DNA of 64,000 nucleotides from Clostridia bacterium (GTDB taxonomy: Bacteria; Bacillota; Clostridia; Christensenellales; Borkfalkiaceae), in NCBI GenBank assembly GCA_017465145.1, contig JAFTWU010000017.1, positions 183,313-247,312 of the forward strand. Reading direction: 5' to 3'. The first letter of the stretch is position 1. Each line of letters begins with the position of its first letter. The notes beneath the pieces are model-generated. The model made no database searches. It saw only the letters and a list, made by a program, of their open reading frames with translations, and was not told where the DNA came from. This document shows, piece after piece, positions 1 to 20,755 of this stretch. The position numbers and the translations under genes are program-made.

Positions 1-1062
1 ATAGTTTTCAACGCCGATTAAGGTTATAACCTTATCAAAAGGACCTTCACGATATAATTGAACTTGAGAGTGTTGGTCGGTTACGCCAAGTGCTTTAACG
101 GGGGTTTGACCAACGAACACTTCATTACCTTCGTTATCAACGGCTTTACCAAGACTTTCGCCCCATAATTGACAATACCAGTCTGCAATATATTTTAAGC
201 TATCTGCATAAGGCATCATAACTGAAATATTCTTGCCTTTATTCATTGCTAAATATTCAATAAGCGCGCTGATAAGTGCGGGGTTTTTGGTGTAATCTTT
301 ATTTTTGCAAAGTTTGTCCATATAGGCCGCGCCAAGCAACAATTCTTTAATATCAATACCAACCACTGCCGCGGGTAGTAAACCAACGGGACAAAGTTCA
401 GAAAATCTTCCGCCAACGCCATCGGGAATATAGAAAGTTTTTAAGCCTTCTTCTTTTGCAATTTTAATAAGGTTACCCTTATTTTCAGAAGTAGTTGCAA
501 TCATATGGTCTTTCGCCTTATCGCCAAATCTCTTCTTTAAGATATCCATAATGATAAGGTATTGAGCCATAGTTTCACTTGTTGCGCCACTCTTTGTTAC
601 GACGTTAAAAATAGTTTTATCTAAATCTAAAACGTCAAGTAATGCGTTCATTCTTTCGGGGTCTACGTTATCTTCAACGTAAAGTTTAGGTGCTTTACGC
701 TTAGATTTAGGCAATTCGTTATGTCTTAAGTGACAAAGTGCTTGGAAAACAGCTATAGGACCAAGCGCAGAACCACCGATACCTAAAACGACGAAATTAT
801 CGCATTTTTTCTTAATATCTTTTGCGGTTGTAATGATATCTGCAACGATTTCCTTTTGGTTATAAGGAAGTTCCGTCCACCCCATCATGCCCGTGCCACG
901 ATTTTCTTTAACGTATTTTAAAGCGGAAAGAGCAAGCTTTTTGTTTGCAGAAAATTCTTCCGCACTAAAACCTTGCTCTGCGCCGATATATTCAGCCATA
1001 ACGTTGTTATAGTCTAGTTTAATTTGCATACTTTTTTGCCATTGTGAATTTTTCTTTGCCAT
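1..1062 (-). CDS. pgi: Glucose-6-phosphate isomerase, C-terminus beyond window edge
   Basis: The reading frame stays open from an ATG at 1062 to the window edge, giving 354 codons. The translation contains the phosphoglucose isomerase signatures VVLGIGGSALGP and VTKSGATSET, followed by GVGGRFSELCPVGLLP. The enzyme interconverts glucose-6-phosphate and fructose-6-phosphate in cytoplasmic glycolysis and gluconeogenesis. The start is supported by a GGAG ribosome-binding site about 9 bases upstream. The full family length is about 440-550 residues, so the C-terminal part lies outside the window. It is a single gene with its own promoter, separated from valS by a terminator. Confidence 0.96.
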   Translation of the reverse strand, partial: MAKKNSQWQKSMQIKLDYNNVMAEYIGAEQGFSAEEFSANKKLALSALKYVKENRGTGMMGWTELPYNQKEIVADIITTAKDIKKKCDNFVVLGIGGSALGPIAVFQALCHLRHNELPKSKRKAPKLYVEDNVDPERMNALLDVLDLDKTIFNVVTKSGATSETMAQYLIIMDILKKRFGDKAKDHMIATTSENKGNLIKIAKEEGLKTFYIPDGVGGRFSELCPVGLLPAAVVGIDIKELLLGAAYMDKLCKNKDYTKNPALISALIEYLAMNKGKNISVMMPYADSLKYIADWYCQLWGESLGKAVDNEGNEVFVGQTPVKALGVTDQHSQVQLYREGPFDKVITLIGVENY

Positions 1063-1117
1063 TTTTAACGTCTCCATGTTGCATAAAATTTAGTGTTTAT
1101 ATAATTTCACTACTATT

Positions 1118-1146
1118 AATATAATATATTATATTAAAGTTGTCAA
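1118..1146 (-). promoter_or_regulatory. Sigma-A promoter for pgi
   Basis: On the minus strand, -35 TTGACA (1146-1141), a 17-base spacer and -10 TATATT (1123-1118) lie about 55 bases upstream of the pgi ATG and after the valS terminator. Confidence 0.7.
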
Positions 1147-1248
1147 TAAGGGTTTTGCCATATTTTGTTAAAATTTATCTATTAACCACAAAATATATGG
1201 CTTAATTTATAAATTAATAAATTTTTTTCGGAAAAATTATATTTAAGA

Positions 1249-1300
1249 GCAAAAAACAAAAATAAAAGGGGTTGACAAAAAAGTCATCCCCCTTTATTTT
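1249..1300 (-). terminator. Rho-independent terminator of valS
   Basis: A hairpin built on GGGGTTGAC and GTCATCCCC with A/T-rich extensions overlaps the valS stop. On the minus strand it is followed by a T-rich run. Confidence 0.75.
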
Positions 1301-3929
1301 ATTCGCCCTTTAAATCATCAATTTGTTTTTTAAGTTTGTCGCGCATATCAACGTACTTATCTCGTTTTGCTCTTTCGGCGTCAACCAACGCTTTAGGCGC
1401 TTTTTCCAAGAATCCGTTGTTAGAAAGTTTACCGCTTGCGCGTGCAATTTCATTTTCAACAGTTCTTAACTCATCACTTAAACGCTTAAGTTCCTTATCA
1501 AAATCAACAAGGTCGCCAAGTGGAATAAATAATTCAGCACCGTCGATAACCTGTGCAACAACTTTTTCAGTTAATACAGATTTATCGTTTACAAAACCAA
1601 TTTCAGAAACACCTGCAAGTTTTTCAATGTAAACGCTACCGTTCTTAATAACCTTTTTATTTTCGGTTTTAACGTATAATGCAACGCGTTTAGAAGGTGC
1701 AGCACCCGTTTTAACCTTAATATTTCTTATATTTTTAATAATTTCTTTAACAGTTTCAATTTCCTTATCACTAGCAAAATAGTTAAGTTTTGCATTGTAT
1801 CTTGGGAATTCTGCAAGCATTAAAGGTCCGTTAGCGCCCGGCATATCCTTATAAATCTTTTCAGTTACGAAAGGAACGAAAGGATGTATAAGTTTTAATA
1901 TTTCGCCTAAAACGTATACTAACACGCTAATTGTGTTATCGCGCTTAACGTCGTCTTCACCATATAAAACGGGTTTAGTTAATTCGATATACCAATCACA
2001 GAAATCATTCCAAACGAAATCGTAAAGGTTAGCAAGCGCAACGCCCATTTCATATTTTTCCATGTTAAGCGTTACTTCTTTAACCGTTTTATTAAGTCTA
2101 GTGATTATCCACTTATCAGCAGAATTTAACTTGCAATCTTTAATAGAAGAAATCTTTTTGCCGTCAGCGTTTAATAGAACGAACCTTGAAGCGTTCCAAA
2201 GTTTATTCATAAAGTTACGCGCGCCTTCGATTTTTTCATCAGAGAAACGCATATCACTACCAGCGGCAACACCGTTTATTAACGAAAAACGCAAGGTGTC
2301 TGCACCGTATTTATCAATAATTACCGTTGGGTCAATGCCGTTGCCAAGAGATTTACTCATCTTTCTGCCTTGGCTATCACGAACTAAACCGTGAATTAAA
2401 ACGTCCTTAAACGGAATACGTTTCATGTGTTCTAGGCCAGAGAAAATCATTCTTGCAACCCAGAAGAAAATAATATCGTAACCGGTAACTAAAACGTCGG
2501 TAGGATAGAAATATTCTAAATCTTCGGTATTATCAGGGTAACCTAGCGTAGAGAAAGGCCATAATGCTGAAGAAAACCAAGTATCTAAAACGTCTTCGTC
2601 TTGCTTAACGTTATGACTACCACACTTAGCGCAAACCTTAACGTCTTCTTTGCTGATAATCATTTCGCCACAGTCTTGGCAGTAGTATGCGGGAATCCTA
2701 TGCCCCCACCAAAGTTGACGTGAAATACACCAATCTTTAACGTTTTCCATCCAATTGAAATAAATTTTAGAAAAACGGTCGGGAACAAACTTAACGCTCT
2801 TTTTACGAACAACGTCAATAGCGGGTTTTGCAAGTGGTTCCATCTTAACGAACCATTGTTTTGAAACGATAGGTTCTACGGTGTGGTTACATCTATAACA
2901 ATGACCTACTGCGTGATGCAAAGGTTCAATTTTAACAAGAGCACCAATTTCTTTTAATTCTTCTACGATAGCAGAACGGCATTCAAGCGCGTCCATACCT
3001 TGATATTTACCCGCGAATTCGTTCATAGTACCGTCGTCATTTAAAACGCGAACACGTTCTAAATTATGGCGCATACCAACTTCAAAGTCGTTGGGGTCGT
3101 GTGCGGGAGTAATTTTAACTGCGCCCGTACCGAATTCAAGTTCTACGTAATCGTCGTATACAACGGGAATTTCTTTATTAACGATAGGAAGAATAAGCGT
3201 TTTACCCTTTAAGTGAGCGTAACGGCTATCTTTTGGGTTAAAAGCAACGGCTGTGTCGCCAAACATAGTTTCTGGACGTGAAGTTGCAACTGTAACGTAT
3301 TCATCGCTATCTTTAACTTGATATTTTATATACCAAAGGTTGCTATCTTCTTCAACGTATTCAACTTCTGCATCAGATAAAGCGGTTTTACAGTCAGGAC
3401 ACCAATTAATAATTCTATCGCCCCTGTAAATCAAACCTTTTTCGTATAAATTAACGAAAACTTCTTTTACTGCGCGAGAACATCTTTCGTCCATAGTAAA
3501 CGCCAAACGTGACCAATCACAAGAAGAGCCAAGCGTTTTTAATTGTTCAATAATTCTTCCGCCGTACTTTTCTTTCCAAGCCCATGCCCTTTCCAAAAAG
3601 CCTTCACGACCAACGTCTTTTTTCGTTAAGCCTTCTTTTGCCATTTGTTCAACGATTTTAACTTCGGTAGCAATTGAAGCGTGGTCAGTACCAGGCAACC
3701 ACAAAGCGCTATAGCGTTGCATACGTTTATACCTGATTAAAGTGTCTTGAAGAGTTTCATCAAGCGCGTGCCCCATGTGTAATTGACCCGTTATATTGGG
3801 CGGGGGTATAACGATGGTAAAGGGTAACTTATTTGCGTCAACCTTTGCCTTAAAATAACCTTTACTTTCCCATTCTTCGTAAATTTCTTTTTCAAATTCC
3901 GAAGGATTATAGGTTTTTGCCATTTCCAT
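1299..3929 (-). CDS. valS: Valyl-tRNA synthetase
   Basis: This 876-residue class I aminoacyl-tRNA synthetase charges tRNA-Val. The HIGH-type motif reads HMGH at residues 51-54 and KMSKS lies near residue 523. The editing domain ([13 protein letters not shown]) and a C-terminal coiled-coil arm typical of ValRS are present. The length matches the family (about 880). A GGAG ribosome-binding site sits before the ATG at 3929. The leader is short, with no T-box, unlike many clostridial valS genes. It is monocistronic, with its own promoter and terminator. Confidence 0.98.
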
Positions 3930-14732: not shown

Positions 14733-15824
14733 ATGAAAAGTAAAATATTAATTTTATTAGCAACTTTAATGGCACTTACTAGTGTTAGCACTCTCTTTGG
14801 TTGTTTTTCATCGCCAACAGACCCGCAAATACCAGATTATAACGCGGATATCGAAATAGTTTTGCCTGAAAACATTGATAGCGAACACTTTATCGTTGAA
14901 GAAGATACCACTTATTACACTTCCCCCGGTTTTAGTTTAATGATGGAAGTTAACGGGTTGTTTAGAGAAATGGATTATTTTTCACTTGACGGCAATAAAC
15001 GTGTTTACGACAACTTGTATCTATACAAAAAAGACTATTTTTTTATGATAACCGACGATTATAAAGATATTTATGCGTCACTTGGCGACACTAATGATTT
15101 GCAATACGGCGAAGAAGAAAAAGAATCTGGCTACGACATACAAATTAACGTTAAAAAATCTGGTATTTATAAACTTATTTTTGATACGGACACCCTTAAA
15201 TTTGATATGGTTTACAAGGATGAAATTACCACCCCTGTTTACTATACAATGCCAAATTGCACTATCTTGGGGGGTGAAAGTTTAACTTGGACGGATTTAC
15301 AAGTTAACCCAAATAATCCTGATGAGTTTTACATAGAAAACTATTATATCCCCGTAAATACATCTATTGCATTTTTGCCAAATAGCCACGTAAGTTTTTA
15401 CAAGGTTACACTAGACGAAACTTGCAACGATAAATTAGGCTATTGGAATTACCCAAGCGTTATTGTTAACGTTGGCGGAAATTATAACGTTTACGTTAAT
15501 AAAAAGACCTACGTTGTACGCTTAGAATTATTAAACCCTGAAACGGCAGATTATACTTGCACCTATTACGCTAATAAAGATTTACAACCGCTAACGGCTT
15601 ACGACCAGTCTATGCCCTATTTATTCACGTATAGAATGGTAGTTGATAAAGTTTATACGTCAATCCCTGAATTTTACACCACAAGGGCAGCAAAGTATAA
15701 ATTAACGCCAAAATCATCACCATATCTACTTGTTGATAGCGATATATTTAAGACAACTGGCATTTTTGATATAAAAATAGACCTATTAAATTTTGAAGTT
15801 AGCGTAGAAAAGTTACCTGAATAA
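14733..15824 (+). CDS. Predicted surface lipoprotein, function unknown
   Basis: This 363-residue protein has a signal peptide and the lipobox LFGC (Cys24), so it should be anchored outside the membrane. The mature part is rich in Tyr, Asp and Asn, with repeated beta-like stretches such as SGIYKLIFDTDTLKFDMVY and GNYNVYVNKKTYVVRLELL. This suggests tandem immunoglobulin-like or starch-binding-like (SusE/F-type) sandwich modules, which is an inference. AACGAAGG lies upstream of the ATG. It lies 71 bases after the nucleosidase gene and ends at a bidirectional terminator. Confidence 0.75.
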   Translation: MKSKILILLATLMALTSVSTLFGCFSSPTDPQIPDYNADIEIVLPENIDSEHFIVEEDTTYYTSPGFSLMMEVNGLFREMDYFSLDGNKRVYDNLYLYKKDYFFMITDDYKDIYASLGDTNDLQYGEEEKESGYDIQINVKKSGIYKLIFDTDTLKFDMVYKDEITTPVYYTMPNCTILGGESLTWTDLQVNPNNPDEFYIENYYIPVNTSIAFLPNSHVSFYKVTLDETCNDKLGYWNYPSVIVNVGGNYNVYVNKKTYVVRLELLNPETADYTCTYYANKDLQPLTAYDQSMPYLFTYRMVVDKVYTSIPEFYTTRAAKYKLTPKSSPYLLVDSDIFKTTGIFDIKIDLLNFEVSVEKLPE

Positions 15825-17714: not shown

Positions 17715-17790
17715 TGGAGCTGCTAACCGGATTCGAACCGGTGACCTCGTCCTTACCAAGGACGTGCTCTACCTGCTGAGCCATAGCAGC
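17715..17790 (-). tRNA. tRNA-Thr (anticodon GGT)
   Basis: 76 bases on the minus strand. The acceptor stem GCTGCTA/TAGCAGC, the T-arm with GGTTCGAATCC and the loop containing GGT are visible, and the CCA end is encoded. Confidence 0.97.
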
Positions 17791-17827: not shown

Positions 17828-17856
17828 ATTATATAAGATAACGTGCCTTTTGTCAA
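17828..17856 (-). promoter_or_regulatory. Sigma-A promoter for tRNA-Thr
   Basis: TTGACA (17856-17851), 17-base spacer, TATAAT (17833-17828), a perfect consensus 38 bases before the tRNA. Confidence 0.88.
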
Positions 17857-17968: not shown

Positions 17969-18000
17969 AAAAAGCAAGTGGGAATTTCCACTTGCTTATT
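17969..18000 (-). terminator. Terminator closing RHS cassette C
   Basis: AAGCAAGTGG / CCACTTGCTT hairpin, the same stem found at 18468-18500, 19226-19262 and 20717-20755. Confidence 0.8.
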
Positions 18001-18223
18001 ATTTAAGATAATTCTGCTGATGTCTTCGTATAATTAATTGCATTATTCTAACAGAAGCAATACCACACACAACAAAATGAATATATACAAATAATAATGA
18101 TAAAATAATATGTAGTGTCGCGCCAATAGATAATTGCGGGGAAATAATAAAATAGAATAAATATAGTAAACCGAAACCTATAATATTAGGTATAAGCCAA
18201 ATCAACATATGGAAAAAACACAT
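17999..18223 (-). CDS. Small hydrophobic membrane protein (cassette C)
   Basis: 74 residues with two predicted membrane helices (about 5-30 and 35-62) and a basic C-terminus IRRHQQNYLK. AGGAAGG precedes the ATG at suitable spacing. It overlaps the end of the preceding small membrane ORF by 22 bases. It is the last gene of the third RHS-remnant cassette, the position held by immunity genes in cassettes A and B, so an immunity role is a positional inference only. No family was recognised. Confidence 0.55.
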   Translation of the reverse strand: MCFFHMLIWLIPNIIGFGLLYLFYFIISPQLSIGATLHIILSLLFVYIHFVVCGIASVRIMQLIIRRHQQNYLK

Positions 18224-18357
18224 ATAGCCCTTCCTGTTTCCTTAAAAATCCTTATCCACGAAAGAAGCAATGTAACAAGATAACCGACAACGGGAACTAT
18301 TGATACGTAATAAAGTATTTTATAATATTTATTGGTCATAACATTCTTTTTTACCAT
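18202..18357 (-). CDS. Small membrane ORF following RHS core scrap (cassette C)
   Basis: A 51-codon ORF with one strong hydrophobic segment (VSIVPVVGYLVTLLLSW). The first ATG, at 18357, sits exactly where sequence identity with the other RHS scraps ends. An internal ATG at 18339 gives a 45-residue protein. Neither has a convincing ribosome-binding site. It could be a small membrane toxin or immunity peptide, or a decayed gene. Coding is uncertain. Confidence 0.4.
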   Translation of the reverse strand: MVKKNVMTNKYYKILYYVSIVPVVGYLVTLLLSWIRIFKETGRAICVFSIC

Positions 18358-18500
18358 GCGTAAAGGTTTAAGCCGTTTATAACATCTGGGTTAATATATT
18401 CTATGCCGTCAATTCTTTATTTAAGTTTAACATAGTTTTATTGAATTTTCAATACTTATTCAAAAAAAGCAAGTGGGGTTTTACCCACTTGCTTTTTTTA
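18358..18500 (-). repeat. RHS-core scrap repeat, copy C, with terminator
   Basis: Near-identical to the repeats at 19099-19262 and 20590-20755. Reading on minus: the terminator hairpin (18500-18468), an AT-rich spacer, then codons for the RHS-core end up to GLNLYA, where it diverges and runs into a stop (TGG TAA). It is the most truncated of the three scraps. Confidence 0.85.
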
Positions 18501-18544
18501 CAAATTGTTTGTGTATTATATAGACATATATTTTTTAATAAAAC

Positions 18545-18985
18545 TTATGTTTCTACAACAAAATGACTGTCTAAATCTCCTCTCACGAAAATTCTAAAGA
18601 TTTCATTATCTTCTTCTAACGTGTTGGCTAGAATATCAATTTTATAGTTATCGTCCAAATAAATTCTTAAATCTTTTCCGCAAAAGTCAATTTTCACAAT
18701 CGTTTTATTAACAAAATCTTTTTCAAACATCTCTAGCTGTTCGTCAAATAAAGAGTTTCCAGCTTTATCCCATTTAAACCTTCTTTTCTTAAAATTTTTT
18801 CTAGGGATATACATATCATATGAAGAGATTAAGATATCATCTTCCTTACAGACCCTAAAAAGAGCTGTTTGAATATGTACACTAATTACATTTTCATAAT
18901 TAGTTTGAAAATCTAAAGAAATTAAATCACATACACGATAGATATCGACTAATTTTGACCCTACTAATTTATCAAACAATTCCAA
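18545..18985 (-). CDS. Putative immunity protein (cassette B)
   Basis: A 146-residue soluble protein starting at a TTG with GGGGGA about 10 bases upstream. Alternating beta-like stretches (VISVHIQTALFRV and DLRIYLDDNYKIDIL) suggest a small alpha/beta fold. No family was recognised with confidence. It follows the RHS-core scrap and an aborted toxin tail, and is closed by the shared terminator. This is the layout of an immunity gene whose toxin partner has been lost. Its strongest support is the intact reading frame beside a broken neighbour. Confidence 0.65.
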   Translation of the reverse strand: MELFDKLVGSKLVDIYRVCDLISLDFQTNYENVISVHIQTALFRVCKEDDILISSYDMYIPRKNFKKRRFKWDKAGNSLFDEQLEMFEKDFVNKTIVKIDFCGKDLRIYLDDNYKIDILANTLEEDNEIFRIFVRGDLDSHFVVET

Positions 18986-19041
18986 TTTTACATTCCCCCT
19001 ATTTTTTTCCGAGTAGTCTTTCCAAAAAGTCTAACAATTCT

Positions 19042-19203
19042 CTAAAACCAAAATTTCTTCCAAAATCCGTGCCAGTCATTGCCATAGCAATCTGTCCTCA
19101 TTACAGGGTTGTTATTGCAATAAGCGTAAAGGTTTAAGCCGTTTATAACATCTGGGTTAATATATTCTATGCCGTCAATTCTTAATTTAAGTTTAACATA
19201 GTT
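19042..19203 (-). pseudogene. RHS-repeat protein C-terminal remnant, aborted toxin tail (cassette B)
   Basis: The open frame begins after a TAA near 19206 without an ATG. It encodes the RHS-core end (RIDGIEYINPDVINGLNLYA, then YCNNNPV), then MRTDCYG in place of the usual DPxG boundary. Only about ten further residues (WHGFWKKFWF) precede a TAG at 19044-19042. A full RHS protein would need more than a thousand codons upstream, so this is a displaced 3' fragment with no remaining toxin domain. Confidence 0.75.
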
Positions 19204-19262
19204 TTATAGAATTTTCAATACGTATTTAAAAAAAGCAAGTGGTATTTACCCACTTGCTTTTG
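19099..19262 (-). repeat. RHS-core scrap repeat, copy B, with terminator
   Basis: About 164 bases nearly identical to 20590-20755. It contains the AAGCAAGTGG-type terminator (19262-19226), a spacer and 34 codons of RHS-core end. A conserved TTGAAA - 17 bases - TAAACT (19218-19190) could be a weak promoter carried by each copy. Confidence 0.88.
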
Positions 19263-19270
19263 TAATAAAG

Positions 19271-20095
19271 TTAACAAGCATATTCTACCATAGTTAATGA
19301 ATGATAAAAACCTAGAGCCTTAAATTTGAAACTTTCTCTTTCAAAATCAAATTCAAAGACCAAATGCTCCGACTCATTTAACCAGACATTTAGCGAACAC
19401 GTTATAAATATCCTACCCTCAAGAATGTCAACCCTCCTCAAGTTAAAACCAAACCTGTTTAAGGAATTTGCATAAATTGTTGTTTGTAGACTCTCTTTGG
19501 TAATAAACTTTGTTTGTTGCGTCTGCGTATCTGTAATTTCTATATTCTTTGATGTCTTTTTATTGGATGTTGACATTATATTTGCGATATATCTATCGTT
19601 ATAAGTTGGCATAAAATCAGATATCTTACAATTCGCGCCAAGACCTTCCGTCACATAATCTCCAGTCGTTAAATTATAAGAATCAACCTTGTTTTCTTCA
19701 CCTTGTTGATAACTCAAATATACTATATCGCCATTTACTTTTGAGTCAATTAACACTGGTAAGTTGCCTTTTTTAAATAATAATCTTAATTCCTCGCCTT
19801 GCAAACCACACTCATAAACACAAAACGAGTCGCCTGCCGTTACAAAAATTATTTTATTATCTTTAATTGAACAAACATGTCTAGGATAGCCTTCTTCAAT
19901 AATTTGTTCTAAACTTAACTCATTGTTGCCATAACATATTTTATCGTATGGAAAAAAAAGTGCAAAATCATTCTCAGATTGATATTGGCTAAACTCGCTT
20001 CGAATTTCTTCTCTGTTAGTTTCCCATTTCGAACAAGCTGTTAATTGCGAAAAAACTATAAAGATACTAACCAGAAATACAAGAACTTTTTTCAT
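19271..20095 (-). CDS. Lipoprotein, putative immunity protein (cassette A)
   Basis: A 274-residue protein with a signal peptide and the lipobox LTAC (Cys21). The mature part has WD/beta-propeller-like blades (for example NKIIFVTAGDSFCVYECG and NGDIVYLSYQQGEENKVDSY). Its ATG overlaps the stop of the upstream RHS tail ORF by four bases (ATGA), so the two are translationally coupled as toxin-immunity pairs are. A surface-anchored immunity protein would suit a toxin acting at or outside the membrane. This is inference from context; no family was recognised. Confidence 0.7.
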   Translation of the reverse strand: MKKVLVFLVSIFIVFSQLTACSKWETNREEIRSEFSQYQSENDFALFFPYDKICYGNNELSLEQIIEEGYPRHVCSIKDNKIIFVTAGDSFCVYECGLQGEELRLLFKKGNLPVLIDSKVNGDIVYLSYQQGEENKVDSYNLTTGDYVTEGLGANCKISDFMPTYNDRYIANIMSTSNKKTSKNIEITDTQTQQTKFITKESLQTTIYANSLNRFGFNLRRVDILEGRIFITCSLNVWLNESEHLVFEFDFERESFKFKALGFYHSLTMVEYAC

Positions 20096-20592
20096 AATAC
20101 GTCCTTTAAAAAAACAATATAATCAAATAGCGCAATGTAACGAAAAACTCTCTTATAGGCAAAACGCATTCCAGCAGATAGTAAACCTTCTATACTATTA
20201 TCAAACATATTATGGCTAAACCCGTCGTGAAAAATAGTCGCACCAATGTCTACACTTTTTGCAGCTTCACCTGCACCAAACAAGCATGCAACATTGTGTG
20301 CTTCCCATTCTATGTATGCTCCAAGAGTAGAACCTTTAATGACGTCCTTAGTTTCTTTTTTTATGTGATTTAAATAAAACGCATAAGCGTATTTACCCCA
20401 CGGAGTTTTAACATTGTGTGAGTCTTTAATGTGCACATTACCTTCGCTAACGACAACCCTATCCGAAGATGTTTCAATTGCTTTAATCTCTTCTATATCT
20501 TGTTTTGTTTTTTCTACAAACACTTTTCCCATCGCAAATAAGGCTGCACCAATAATTACTTCAAAAAAACTCCCATTCGGGTCAACGTTCAT
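20092..20592 (-). CDS. Orphan RHS C-terminal (toxin-tail) fragment (cassette A)
   Basis: 166 codons from ATG. The same frame is open for 34 further codons upstream (to about 20694), encoding the RHS-core end GLNLYAYCNNNPV before the boundary motif MNVDPNG. After that come a hydrophobic helix (FFEVIIGAALFAMGKVFV) and an unrecognised domain containing GKYAYAFYLNHI, GSTLGAYIEW and GATIFHDGFSH. There is no ribosome-binding site at the ATG and no RHS repeats upstream. It is therefore a displaced C-terminus of a polymorphic toxin, perhaps expressed only after recombination into a full-length RHS gene. The toxic activity is unknown. Confidence 0.7.
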   Translation of the reverse strand: MNVDPNGSFFEVIIGAALFAMGKVFVEKTKQDIEEIKAIETSSDRVVVSEGNVHIKDSHNVKTPWGKYAYAFYLNHIKKETKDVIKGSTLGAYIEWEAHNVACLFGAGEAAKSVDIGATIFHDGFSHNMFDNSIEGLLSAGMRFAYKRVFRYIALFDYIVFLKDVL

Positions 20593-20755
20593 TACAGGGT
20601 TGTTATTGCAATAAGCGTAAAGGTTTAAGCCGTTTATAACATCTGGGTTAATATATTCTATGCCGTCAATTCTTATTTTTAGTTTAACATAGTTTTATGG
20701 AATATTCAATACGTATTTAAAAAAAACAAGTGGACAAAATCCACTTGCTTTTTAT
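20590..20755 (-). repeat. RHS-core scrap repeat, copy A, with gyrA-distal terminator
   Basis: First of three near-identical units. The terminator hairpin (20755-20717, CAAGTGGA/TCCACTTG) lies 14 bases after the gyrA stop and serves gyrA. The spacer and RHS-core codons follow up to the toxin-tail ATG. Confidence 0.88.

Follow-up and report, generated by a model that had tools for sequence, protein, structure and literature searches.

A three-cassette array of orphan RHS toxin/immunity units, apparently decaying, between gyrA and tRNA-Thr of a Clostridia bacterium

The window considered here is a stretch of 64,000 nucleotides (nt) from the genome of a Clostridia bacterium (GCA_017465145.1, called G000 below), and our subject is the array of three RHS-derived cassettes that lies in it between gyrA and the gene for tRNA-Thr. 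The array is built around a 164-nt repeat present in three copies, at 20589-20752, 19098-19261 and 18332-18495 (copies 1, 2 and 3). Read on the minus strand, each copy consists of a terminator, a leader of ca 50 nt, and the final 20-28 codons of an RHS core, which we call the scrap. The terminator half of the repeat closes the preceding unit and the scrap half opens the next one, and a fourth terminator of the same family ends the array. The features are listed below, where CT stands for the frame in the toxin position, IMM for the presumed immunity gene and ORF for open reading frame. Shine-Dalgarno strengths are given as duplex energies (dG) with the anti-Shine-Dalgarno end.

20724..20750, minus strand: terminator T1, directly 3′ of gyrA and also the 5′ end of the cassette 1 repeat
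20681..20709, minus strand: weak promoter-like site P1, TTGAAT-17-TAAACT, 8/12 matches
20590..20673, minus strand: RHS core-end scrap 1, matching TIGR03696 positions 45-75 (E-value 1e-6)
20092..20592, minus strand: CT1, toxin-position frame, open for 166 codons from the ATG of NNPV-M, no Shine-Dalgarno sequence
19271..20095, minus strand: IMM1, 274-aa ORF with a lipoprotein-like start (by eye), Shine-Dalgarno dG −6.4, immunity role from position alone
19233..19259, minus strand: terminator T2, by the terminator pattern
19190..19218, minus strand: weak promoter-like site P2, TTGAAA-17-TAAACT, 9/12 matches, TG preceding the −10 element
19099..19182, minus strand: RHS core-end scrap 2, by translation and TIGR03696 match
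19042..19098, minus strand: CT2 stub, 18 codons past the scrap and then a stop
18545..18985, minus strand: IMM2, intact 146-aa immunity-family ORF with a TTG start, Shine-Dalgarno dG −9.3
18467..18494, minus strand: terminator T3, by the terminator pattern
18424..18452, minus strand: weak promoter-like site P3, TTGAAA-17-TAAACT, 9/12 matches, TG preceding the −10 element
18357..18416, minus strand: RHS core-end scrap 3, fused to the ATG of the next ORF, CT3 absent
17999..18357, minus strand: presumed IMM3 remains, two overlapping membrane-protein-like frames (18202-18357 and 17999-18223), role from position alone
17972..17997, minus strand: terminator T4, closing the array
17715..17790, minus strand: tRNA-Thr (GGT), the downstream border, with a promoter-like TTGACA-17-TATAAT at 17828-17856

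The pairwise identities of the repeat are 93.3% for copies 1 and 2, 89.7% for copies 2 and 3, and 84.9% for copies 1 and 3, with longest identical stretches of 60-87 nt. The real pairs score 112-142, compared to a maximum of 23 in 200 shuffles (copy 1 against copy 2). The coordinates, the identities and the shuffle test thus bear out an earlier sequence-only reading of this locus, in which three near-identical repeats of a terminator and an RHS core end were described. The same holds for its further observations: the ORFs 3′ of the repeat copies are mutually unrelated, and no RHS repeats were found upstream of the array. The exact terminator pattern occurs at five sites in the genome, namely the four in the array and one on another contig (C13), 3′ of an ordinary-looking gene.

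Scraps 1 and 2 translate to RIDGIEYINPDVINGLNLYAYCNNNPVM, while copy 3 stops at ...GLNLYA. A profile search of the kind that the earlier reading had called for gives matches of scraps 1 and 2 to the end alone of TIGR03696 (Rhs_assc_core), at positions 45-75 and 44-75 with E-values of 1e-6 and 3e-6, which is under the curated cut-off of the model. These low scores would be in line with a rival view, in which the peptide is not RHS-derived and the repeats are part of a fixed locus with some other function. We give this option hardly any credence, as the peptide matches the ends of full-length RHS proteins of the same genus and the cassettes were not found at gyrA in the 29 relatives examined. 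In G007, for example, a 1,554-aa RHS frame carries ...IDSIEYIDPESINGLNLYAYCGNNPVMNVDPDG ahead of its C-terminus and is followed by an orphan cassette. TIGR03696 is matched in 7 of the 44 genomes of the genus, G000 included (E up to 0.01), and across the order in 69 of 297 genomes at E up to 1e-3. The RHS part of the repeat has matches in relatives. The scraps are core-end fragments without a delivery part, as in orphan Rhs-CT/RhsI modules. Judged by sequence, the units of the array are orphan RHS C-terminal toxin/immunity cassettes, because full-length RHS genes of the same genus end in nearly the same peptide and because the IMM2 family adjoins a main RHS toxin elsewhere (see below). Orphan RHS cassettes as a kind are known and widespread in the order, and what the window adds is a solitary, terminator-bounded and toxin-eroded form.

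It is important to point out that a main RHS gene was not found in G000, an assembly of 1.51 Mb in 24 contigs that is 94% complete. Its only two TIGR03696 matches up to an E-value of 10 are the scraps of the array, and a query of 1,033 residues from the RHS body of a sister genome gave no match up to E 10 in this ca 94% complete assembly. The same query found matches in all six sister genomes that have TIGR03696 matches. The array is therefore not located 3′ of a detected main rhs gene, a position that is usual for orphan modules and not defining in itself; solitary orphan cassettes are found also in G028 and G019.

This result bears directly on the proposal of the sequence-only reading that the array consists of displaced rhs toxin/immunity modules serving as a reservoir that swaps into a full-length gene. 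The identity of the cassettes stands, on account of the peptide ends and the IMM2 family, while the reservoir is unsupported in G000 because no RHS body was found to swap into, and no full-length RHS gene with a 3′ end matching the repeat was detected. Swapping of this kind is established elsewhere (PMC3967940), and in the genus a G019 orphan has a C-terminus homologous to that of the G007 main gene (79% identity), so that one toxin family occurs in both positions. On the other hand, each copy in the window contains merely 60-84 nt of core, compared to 522 bp in Salmonella (PMC3967940), and two of the three toxins are destroyed. The array cannot serve as a swap reservoir in G000 unless the assembly has missed the main gene. 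Since no such gene was found, swapping is unlikely to explain the retention of the array there, and we consider this explanation improbable.

We now turn to the insertion site. The search for gyrA loci returned 30, one of them from G000 itself and 29 from relatives, with 14 other genomes of the genus outside this set. In 14 of the 29, gyrA is followed on the same strand by tRNA-Thr(GGT) at a distance of 98-379 nt; in four the tRNA gene is on the opposite strand, and in eleven it falls outside the stretch examined. The corresponding distance in the window is 2,978 nt. This difference in spacing marks the array as an insertion, or growth, at a gyrA–tRNA-Thr junction that is probably ancestral. 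The earlier reading had asked how the cassette content 3′ of gyrA compares among relatives, where an invariant set would have pointed to a fixed function. The window cassettes were found in none of the 29 neighbourhoods: tblastn with their proteins (E up to 1e-3) gave no match in downstream stretches of up to ca 1.5 kb, some of them much shorter. Adjacency to tRNA genes was also considered as a landing rule, and no clear rule emerged, with tRNA genes in 6 of the 25 relative loci scanned.

The three cassettes differ in their state of preservation: IMM1 stands behind an open toxin frame, IMM2 stands without a toxin, and the presumed IMM3 is frame-shifted. In cassette 1, the order of a presumed toxin and then an immunity gene is assigned by position alone, and the stop of CT1 overlaps the start of IMM1 (ATGA). 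Neither protein has a Pfam or NCBIfam match over the cut-off or a credible relative in the 297 genomes of the order. Three matches of CT1 outside its own genome (E 2.5e-4 to 5e-3) lie within long ORFs that read, by eye, as ordinary proteins, and were taken as chance. CT1 has no match in plasmids, in solved structures (E up to 1) or in PHROGs, and no confirmed relative in viral contigs. For IMM1, the PHROGs search gave no credible relative, the better of two weak matches outside its own genome is inside an unrelated-looking long ORF, and a relative behind a full-length RHS gene was not found in the genomes of the order. The earlier suggestion of novel toxin and immunity families may thus be right for CT1 and its lipoprotein-like partner, which are without a credible relative in the searches made.

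In cassette 3, the scrap is joined straight to the ATG of the next ORF, so that the toxin is gone, and that ORF is itself frame-shifted. Its remains resemble by eye a 113-aa membrane protein of G019. However, this likeness gave no BLAST match up to E 1, and when one of the two pieces was compared directly with that protein, the E-value was 41. The search for relatives of IMM3 was confined to the fetched loci.

In cassette 2, CT2 has been reduced to a stub of 18 codons while IMM2 is intact. IMM2 is matched in 11 of the 297 genomes at E up to 0.01, its own included (E-values per single genome), and alignment places proteins from G169, G259, G332 and G304 in one family with it, at 24-30% identity to IMM2. 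The member in G259 is the ORF directly 3′ of a main RHS toxin. Its E-value is 4e-5 in the single-sequence search and 5e-8 in a direct BLASTP for that one comparison. In a search of 3,010 frames from 133 loci, a profile of IMM2 and the G169, G332 and G304 relatives, built without the G259 protein, finds it at 1e-15. Outside the training members, no frame except that of G259 passes E 1 with this profile. The IMM2 family is thus found also behind a full-length RHS gene, and by these comparisons IMM2 is a member of an RHS immunity family. IMM2 has no Pfam match, and its relatives have only weak one-member Pfam matches. A family of immunity proteins is added that occurs in both main and toxin-free settings. 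A single match of the family in the PDB (E 0.21) was taken as chance, and in PHROGs there is one match at E 0.026.

The toxin-free setting is that of G169, where the IMM2 relative (E 4e-13) is in a string of ORFs without a toxin behind an RHS scrap, LNSRYYDHEVGRFI, that matches TIGR03696 weakly. At this locus (L140, contig C3 of G169, 560-2040, minus strand), a promoter-like TTGACA-17-TATCTT (by eye) precedes the scrap, and a 135-aa ORF and the IMM2-family ORF follow it. The string is within ca 1 kb of a tRNA-Thr(GGT) gene, and the window array likewise borders tRNA-Thr. The IMM2-family ORF of G332 (L089) is near a tRNA cluster.

In the window, the translation signals set the toxin frames apart from IMM1 and IMM2. 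Both toxin ATGs in the window have a dG of +0.9, compared to −6.4 for IMM1 and −9.3 for IMM2, and as references the value is −3.8 to −8.4 for five other genes of the window and −1.7 for the mean over array positions. For five orphans of three relatives, the toxin ATGs have values of −1.5, −1.5, −1.5, −3.0 and −6.2, and the immunity starts of the same orphans −2.8, −5.9, −6.8, −6.8 and −7.1. The toxin fragments of the window thus have an ATG and lack the accompanying start signal, as is characteristic of orphan modules. Because of this contrast in Shine-Dalgarno energies, the immunity genes look translatable and the toxin fragments mostly not, as in the orphans of contact-dependent growth inhibition (CDI) systems. 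For these, an orphan CdiI has been reported to be produced and protective, with the orphan toxin undetected (PMC3150448).

Next, we consider whether solitary cassettes could be transcribed. The orphan cassettes of G007, G019 and G028 are similar in build to those of the window, and five of them (three from G019) have, close to where the RHS scrap begins, TTGACA-17-TAAAAT, TATAAT or TATTAT. A survey was made of 92 core ends in the fetched loci, classed by frame length alone as orphan-like (48), main-like (31) or neither (13, dropped), with a promoter counted when at least 11 of 12 positions match in the 400 nt that precede the core-end motif. Such promoters were found for 19 of the 48 orphans and 5 of the 31 mains. 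The corresponding counts are 2 of 47 for toxin stretches, 2 of 91 for upstream flanks and 70 of 890 for background windows (Fisher test, orphans versus background 7e-9, orphans versus mains 0.04; orphans within one array are not independent). Dinucleotide shuffles give an expectation of 0.2 for the orphans and 0.3 for the mains. This test with a fixed 400-nt stretch replaced an earlier one on junction windows because the homology starts used there are noisy; that one had given 11 of 48 with at least 10/12 matches, compared to 2.5% of toxin windows and 4.7% upstream. A strict DNA pattern of promoter plus minimal scrap, which excludes the weak promoter of the window and longer scraps, was matched by two stretches in the genome collection, one in G028 and one in G007.

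In several genomes the promoter-like site falls in the codons of a motif of the LDxxGxVVxYxYDAWG type. This is true of every hit in G137 and in G272 (three per genome) and of three out of four hits in G082. G137 and G316 show the same arrangement in their main genes, where the site is internal to the gene at such a motif. Selection on this core-encoded promoter beyond that on the protein was evaluated by synonymous-codon resampling of 13 motifs, with p values of 0.017-0.063 for five (G137, G272) and 0.14-1.0 for the other eight; such selection is therefore not a general result. The idea that the promoter sets the 5′ edge of long-core orphans was weakened by orphans in G118, G099 and G127 that start near the same motif with no consensus promoter at that place.

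Taken across the order, these data suggest a tentative generalization, which we put forward as possible while placing its chances clearly below even. The RHS cassette would be a self-sufficient expression unit, with a sigma-70 promoter at its 5′ edge, provided either by the core motif codons or by a new fusion at the scrap border, and a terminator at its 3′ end. Displaced toxin/immunity pairs could then land behind housekeeping genes, distant from any RHS gene. The toxin would be lost, and the immunity gene would stay on, still expressed, in lineages without the weapon, the window representing a late stage. Promoters near the cassette edges of the relatives would explain how solitary cassettes are expressed wherever they have landed. 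No report of solitary RHS units with their own promoters in Clostridia was found in the open-access literature searched.

For the window itself, our preferred interpretation, to which we assign a probability of roughly 0.58, is that of a three-cassette orphan RHS array, inserted at gyrA–tRNA-Thr and decaying, whose remaining role, if any, is that of an immunity store without a weapon. In this mechanism, an array of three cassettes would have been inserted in this lineage, a terminator and a leader with its promoter-like site marking the bounds of each, and the cassettes would have multiplied through recombination at the common terminator–scrap repeat. The toxin parts would be untranslated, and IMM1 and IMM2 would still be produced, guarding the cell from the RHS toxins of its neighbours.

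The closest competitor is a pure graveyard, that is, inert debris of a lost RHS locus that has no effective transcription and awaits deletion. The truncated or missing toxins of cassettes 2 and 3, the frame-shifted presumed IMM3, the weakness of the window promoters and the missing main gene are all consistent with it. However, IMM1 and IMM2 are intact and have ribosome sites, the IMM2 relative is kept toxin-free in a second, distant genome (G169), and near-consensus promoters are present on the orphan cassettes of three genus relatives. We consider it rather unlikely that the array is debris throughout. The word graveyard, which the sequence-only reading had offered, suits the toxins, and it suits less the two immunity genes.

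It is important to note that several results weigh against an immunity store in the window, or against parts of the argument for it. The start of the frame-shifted ORF in cassette 3 has no ribosome site (dG −1.7), and immunity is therefore not always retained. The IMM2 relative in G259 was missed by one tblastn search (E up to 1). The case for promoters is weakest precisely at the window: P1-P3 are at the position that matches the sites of the relatives, with no more than 8, 9 and 9 of 12 matches, and the two window cassettes that were scored both stay below 10/12. The score of copy 1 is reached by 141 of 200 dinucleotide shuffles, and for copy 2 an unrelated site of equal score is reached by 86 of 200. 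Counted by genome, promoters with at least 11/12 matches are present in 10 of the 30 genomes with orphans and in none of the orphans of the other 20. Finally, the ratio of nonsynonymous to synonymous substitution rates (dN/dS) for the G007/G019 toxin pair is 0.089, compared to 0.244 for their immunity genes and 0.123 for the RHS bodies; the toxin ratio is rough because dS is 1.57, near saturation. The G019 orphan toxin thus seems to have been constrained for much of its history, perhaps while it was in a main gene, which counts against toxins being ballast in fresh cassettes.

This last result would also fit a toxin–antitoxin-like module, in which an orphan toxin is made intracellularly at a low level and held by its immunity protein, retaining the locus or regulating growth. 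Such behaviour has been reported for main and orphan rhs genes of Salmonella, with internal promoters (PMC7043789), and the open CT1 frame with its ATGA overlap is compatible with it. The CT1 start is, however, without a ribosome site, and cassettes 2 and 3, having lost their toxins, cannot act in this way. We judge this mechanism to be very improbable for the array. More generally, the long-standing question of why orphans are retained, for swapping, addiction or immunity, becomes testable.

The immunity-store interpretation can be compared with known systems. The orphan cdiA-CT/cdiI and rhs-CT/rhsI modules described by Poole et al. in 2011 (PMC3150448) resemble the window in having displaced toxin fragments, mostly without a translation start, ahead of an immunity gene that has a ribosome site, and in forming arrays; for an orphan locus of Escherichia coli EC93, production of immunity was shown. 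The EC93 orphans are 3′ of the main gene and co-transcribed with it, whereas in the window no main gene was found, every unit comes with a terminator and leader of its own, and two toxins out of three have been lost. The Salmonella rhs genes (PMC7043789) offer a parallel to the cassettes of the order: in main and orphan genes alike, the toxin and immunity parts are expressed from promoters in the conserved end of the RHS core. In Salmonella, transcription of both the main and the orphan gene begins 89 nt before PxxxxDPxGL, whereas the promoter-like sites in the order are in the LDxxGxVVxYxYDAWG codons or near the scrap border. A further difference is that the toxin frames of the window are without a ribosome site.

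The orphan immunity arrays of the type VI secretion system (T6SS) in Vibrio cholerae (PMC5361080) are similar in outcome, since repeated displacement leaves rows of immunity genes behind after their toxins have been lost. They sit in T6SS clusters, whereas the window array is at gyrA, with no RHS gene detected and with an RHS scrap and a terminator for each unit. The mafB-CT cassettes of Neisseria (PMC4287609) also form strings of alternative C-terminal toxins, some without an initiation codon and each with one or more immunity genes behind it, and differ in belonging to another toxin family. Against this background, the window illustrates a possible fate of interbacterial toxin cassettes after loss of the weapon, with the toxins eroded in two of three units and one recognisable immunity gene whole beside a toxin stub.

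Some further observations concern the RHS loci of the relatives. In G028, a 1,651-aa RHS gene is behind rpsI, and a solitary orphan is ca 6.4 kb away between pckA- and glnA-like genes (names by translation). The main RHS gene of G019 is interrupted by a contig end, and two orphans in tandem, with a common repeat of 300 nt or more (90% identity), are on a contig whose start overlaps that end. Both copies of this repeat (L029, contig C15, 1183-1482 and 2617-2916) contain, within the RHS scrap, ca 170 additional nt in which some parts are hairpin-like, and a third terminator with a remnant resembling a −35 element follows at 3838-3888. G019 contains a further solitary orphan elsewhere (L030, contig C77, 6060-7170). 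Its toxin frame is broken, its membrane-protein-like ORF of 171 aa is intact, and the terminators on its flanks are nearly identical. It sits 3′ of a gene that looks like the one ahead of the main RHS gene in G007, as if at a former RHS site. An array much longer than that of the window is found in G255 (L065, contig C18), where seven RHS core ends occur in ca 9 kb and the frame that carries the first is 1,838 codons long. In the window itself, a few genes past tRNA-Thr, a 363-aa ORF with a lipoprotein-like start lies at 14733-15824.

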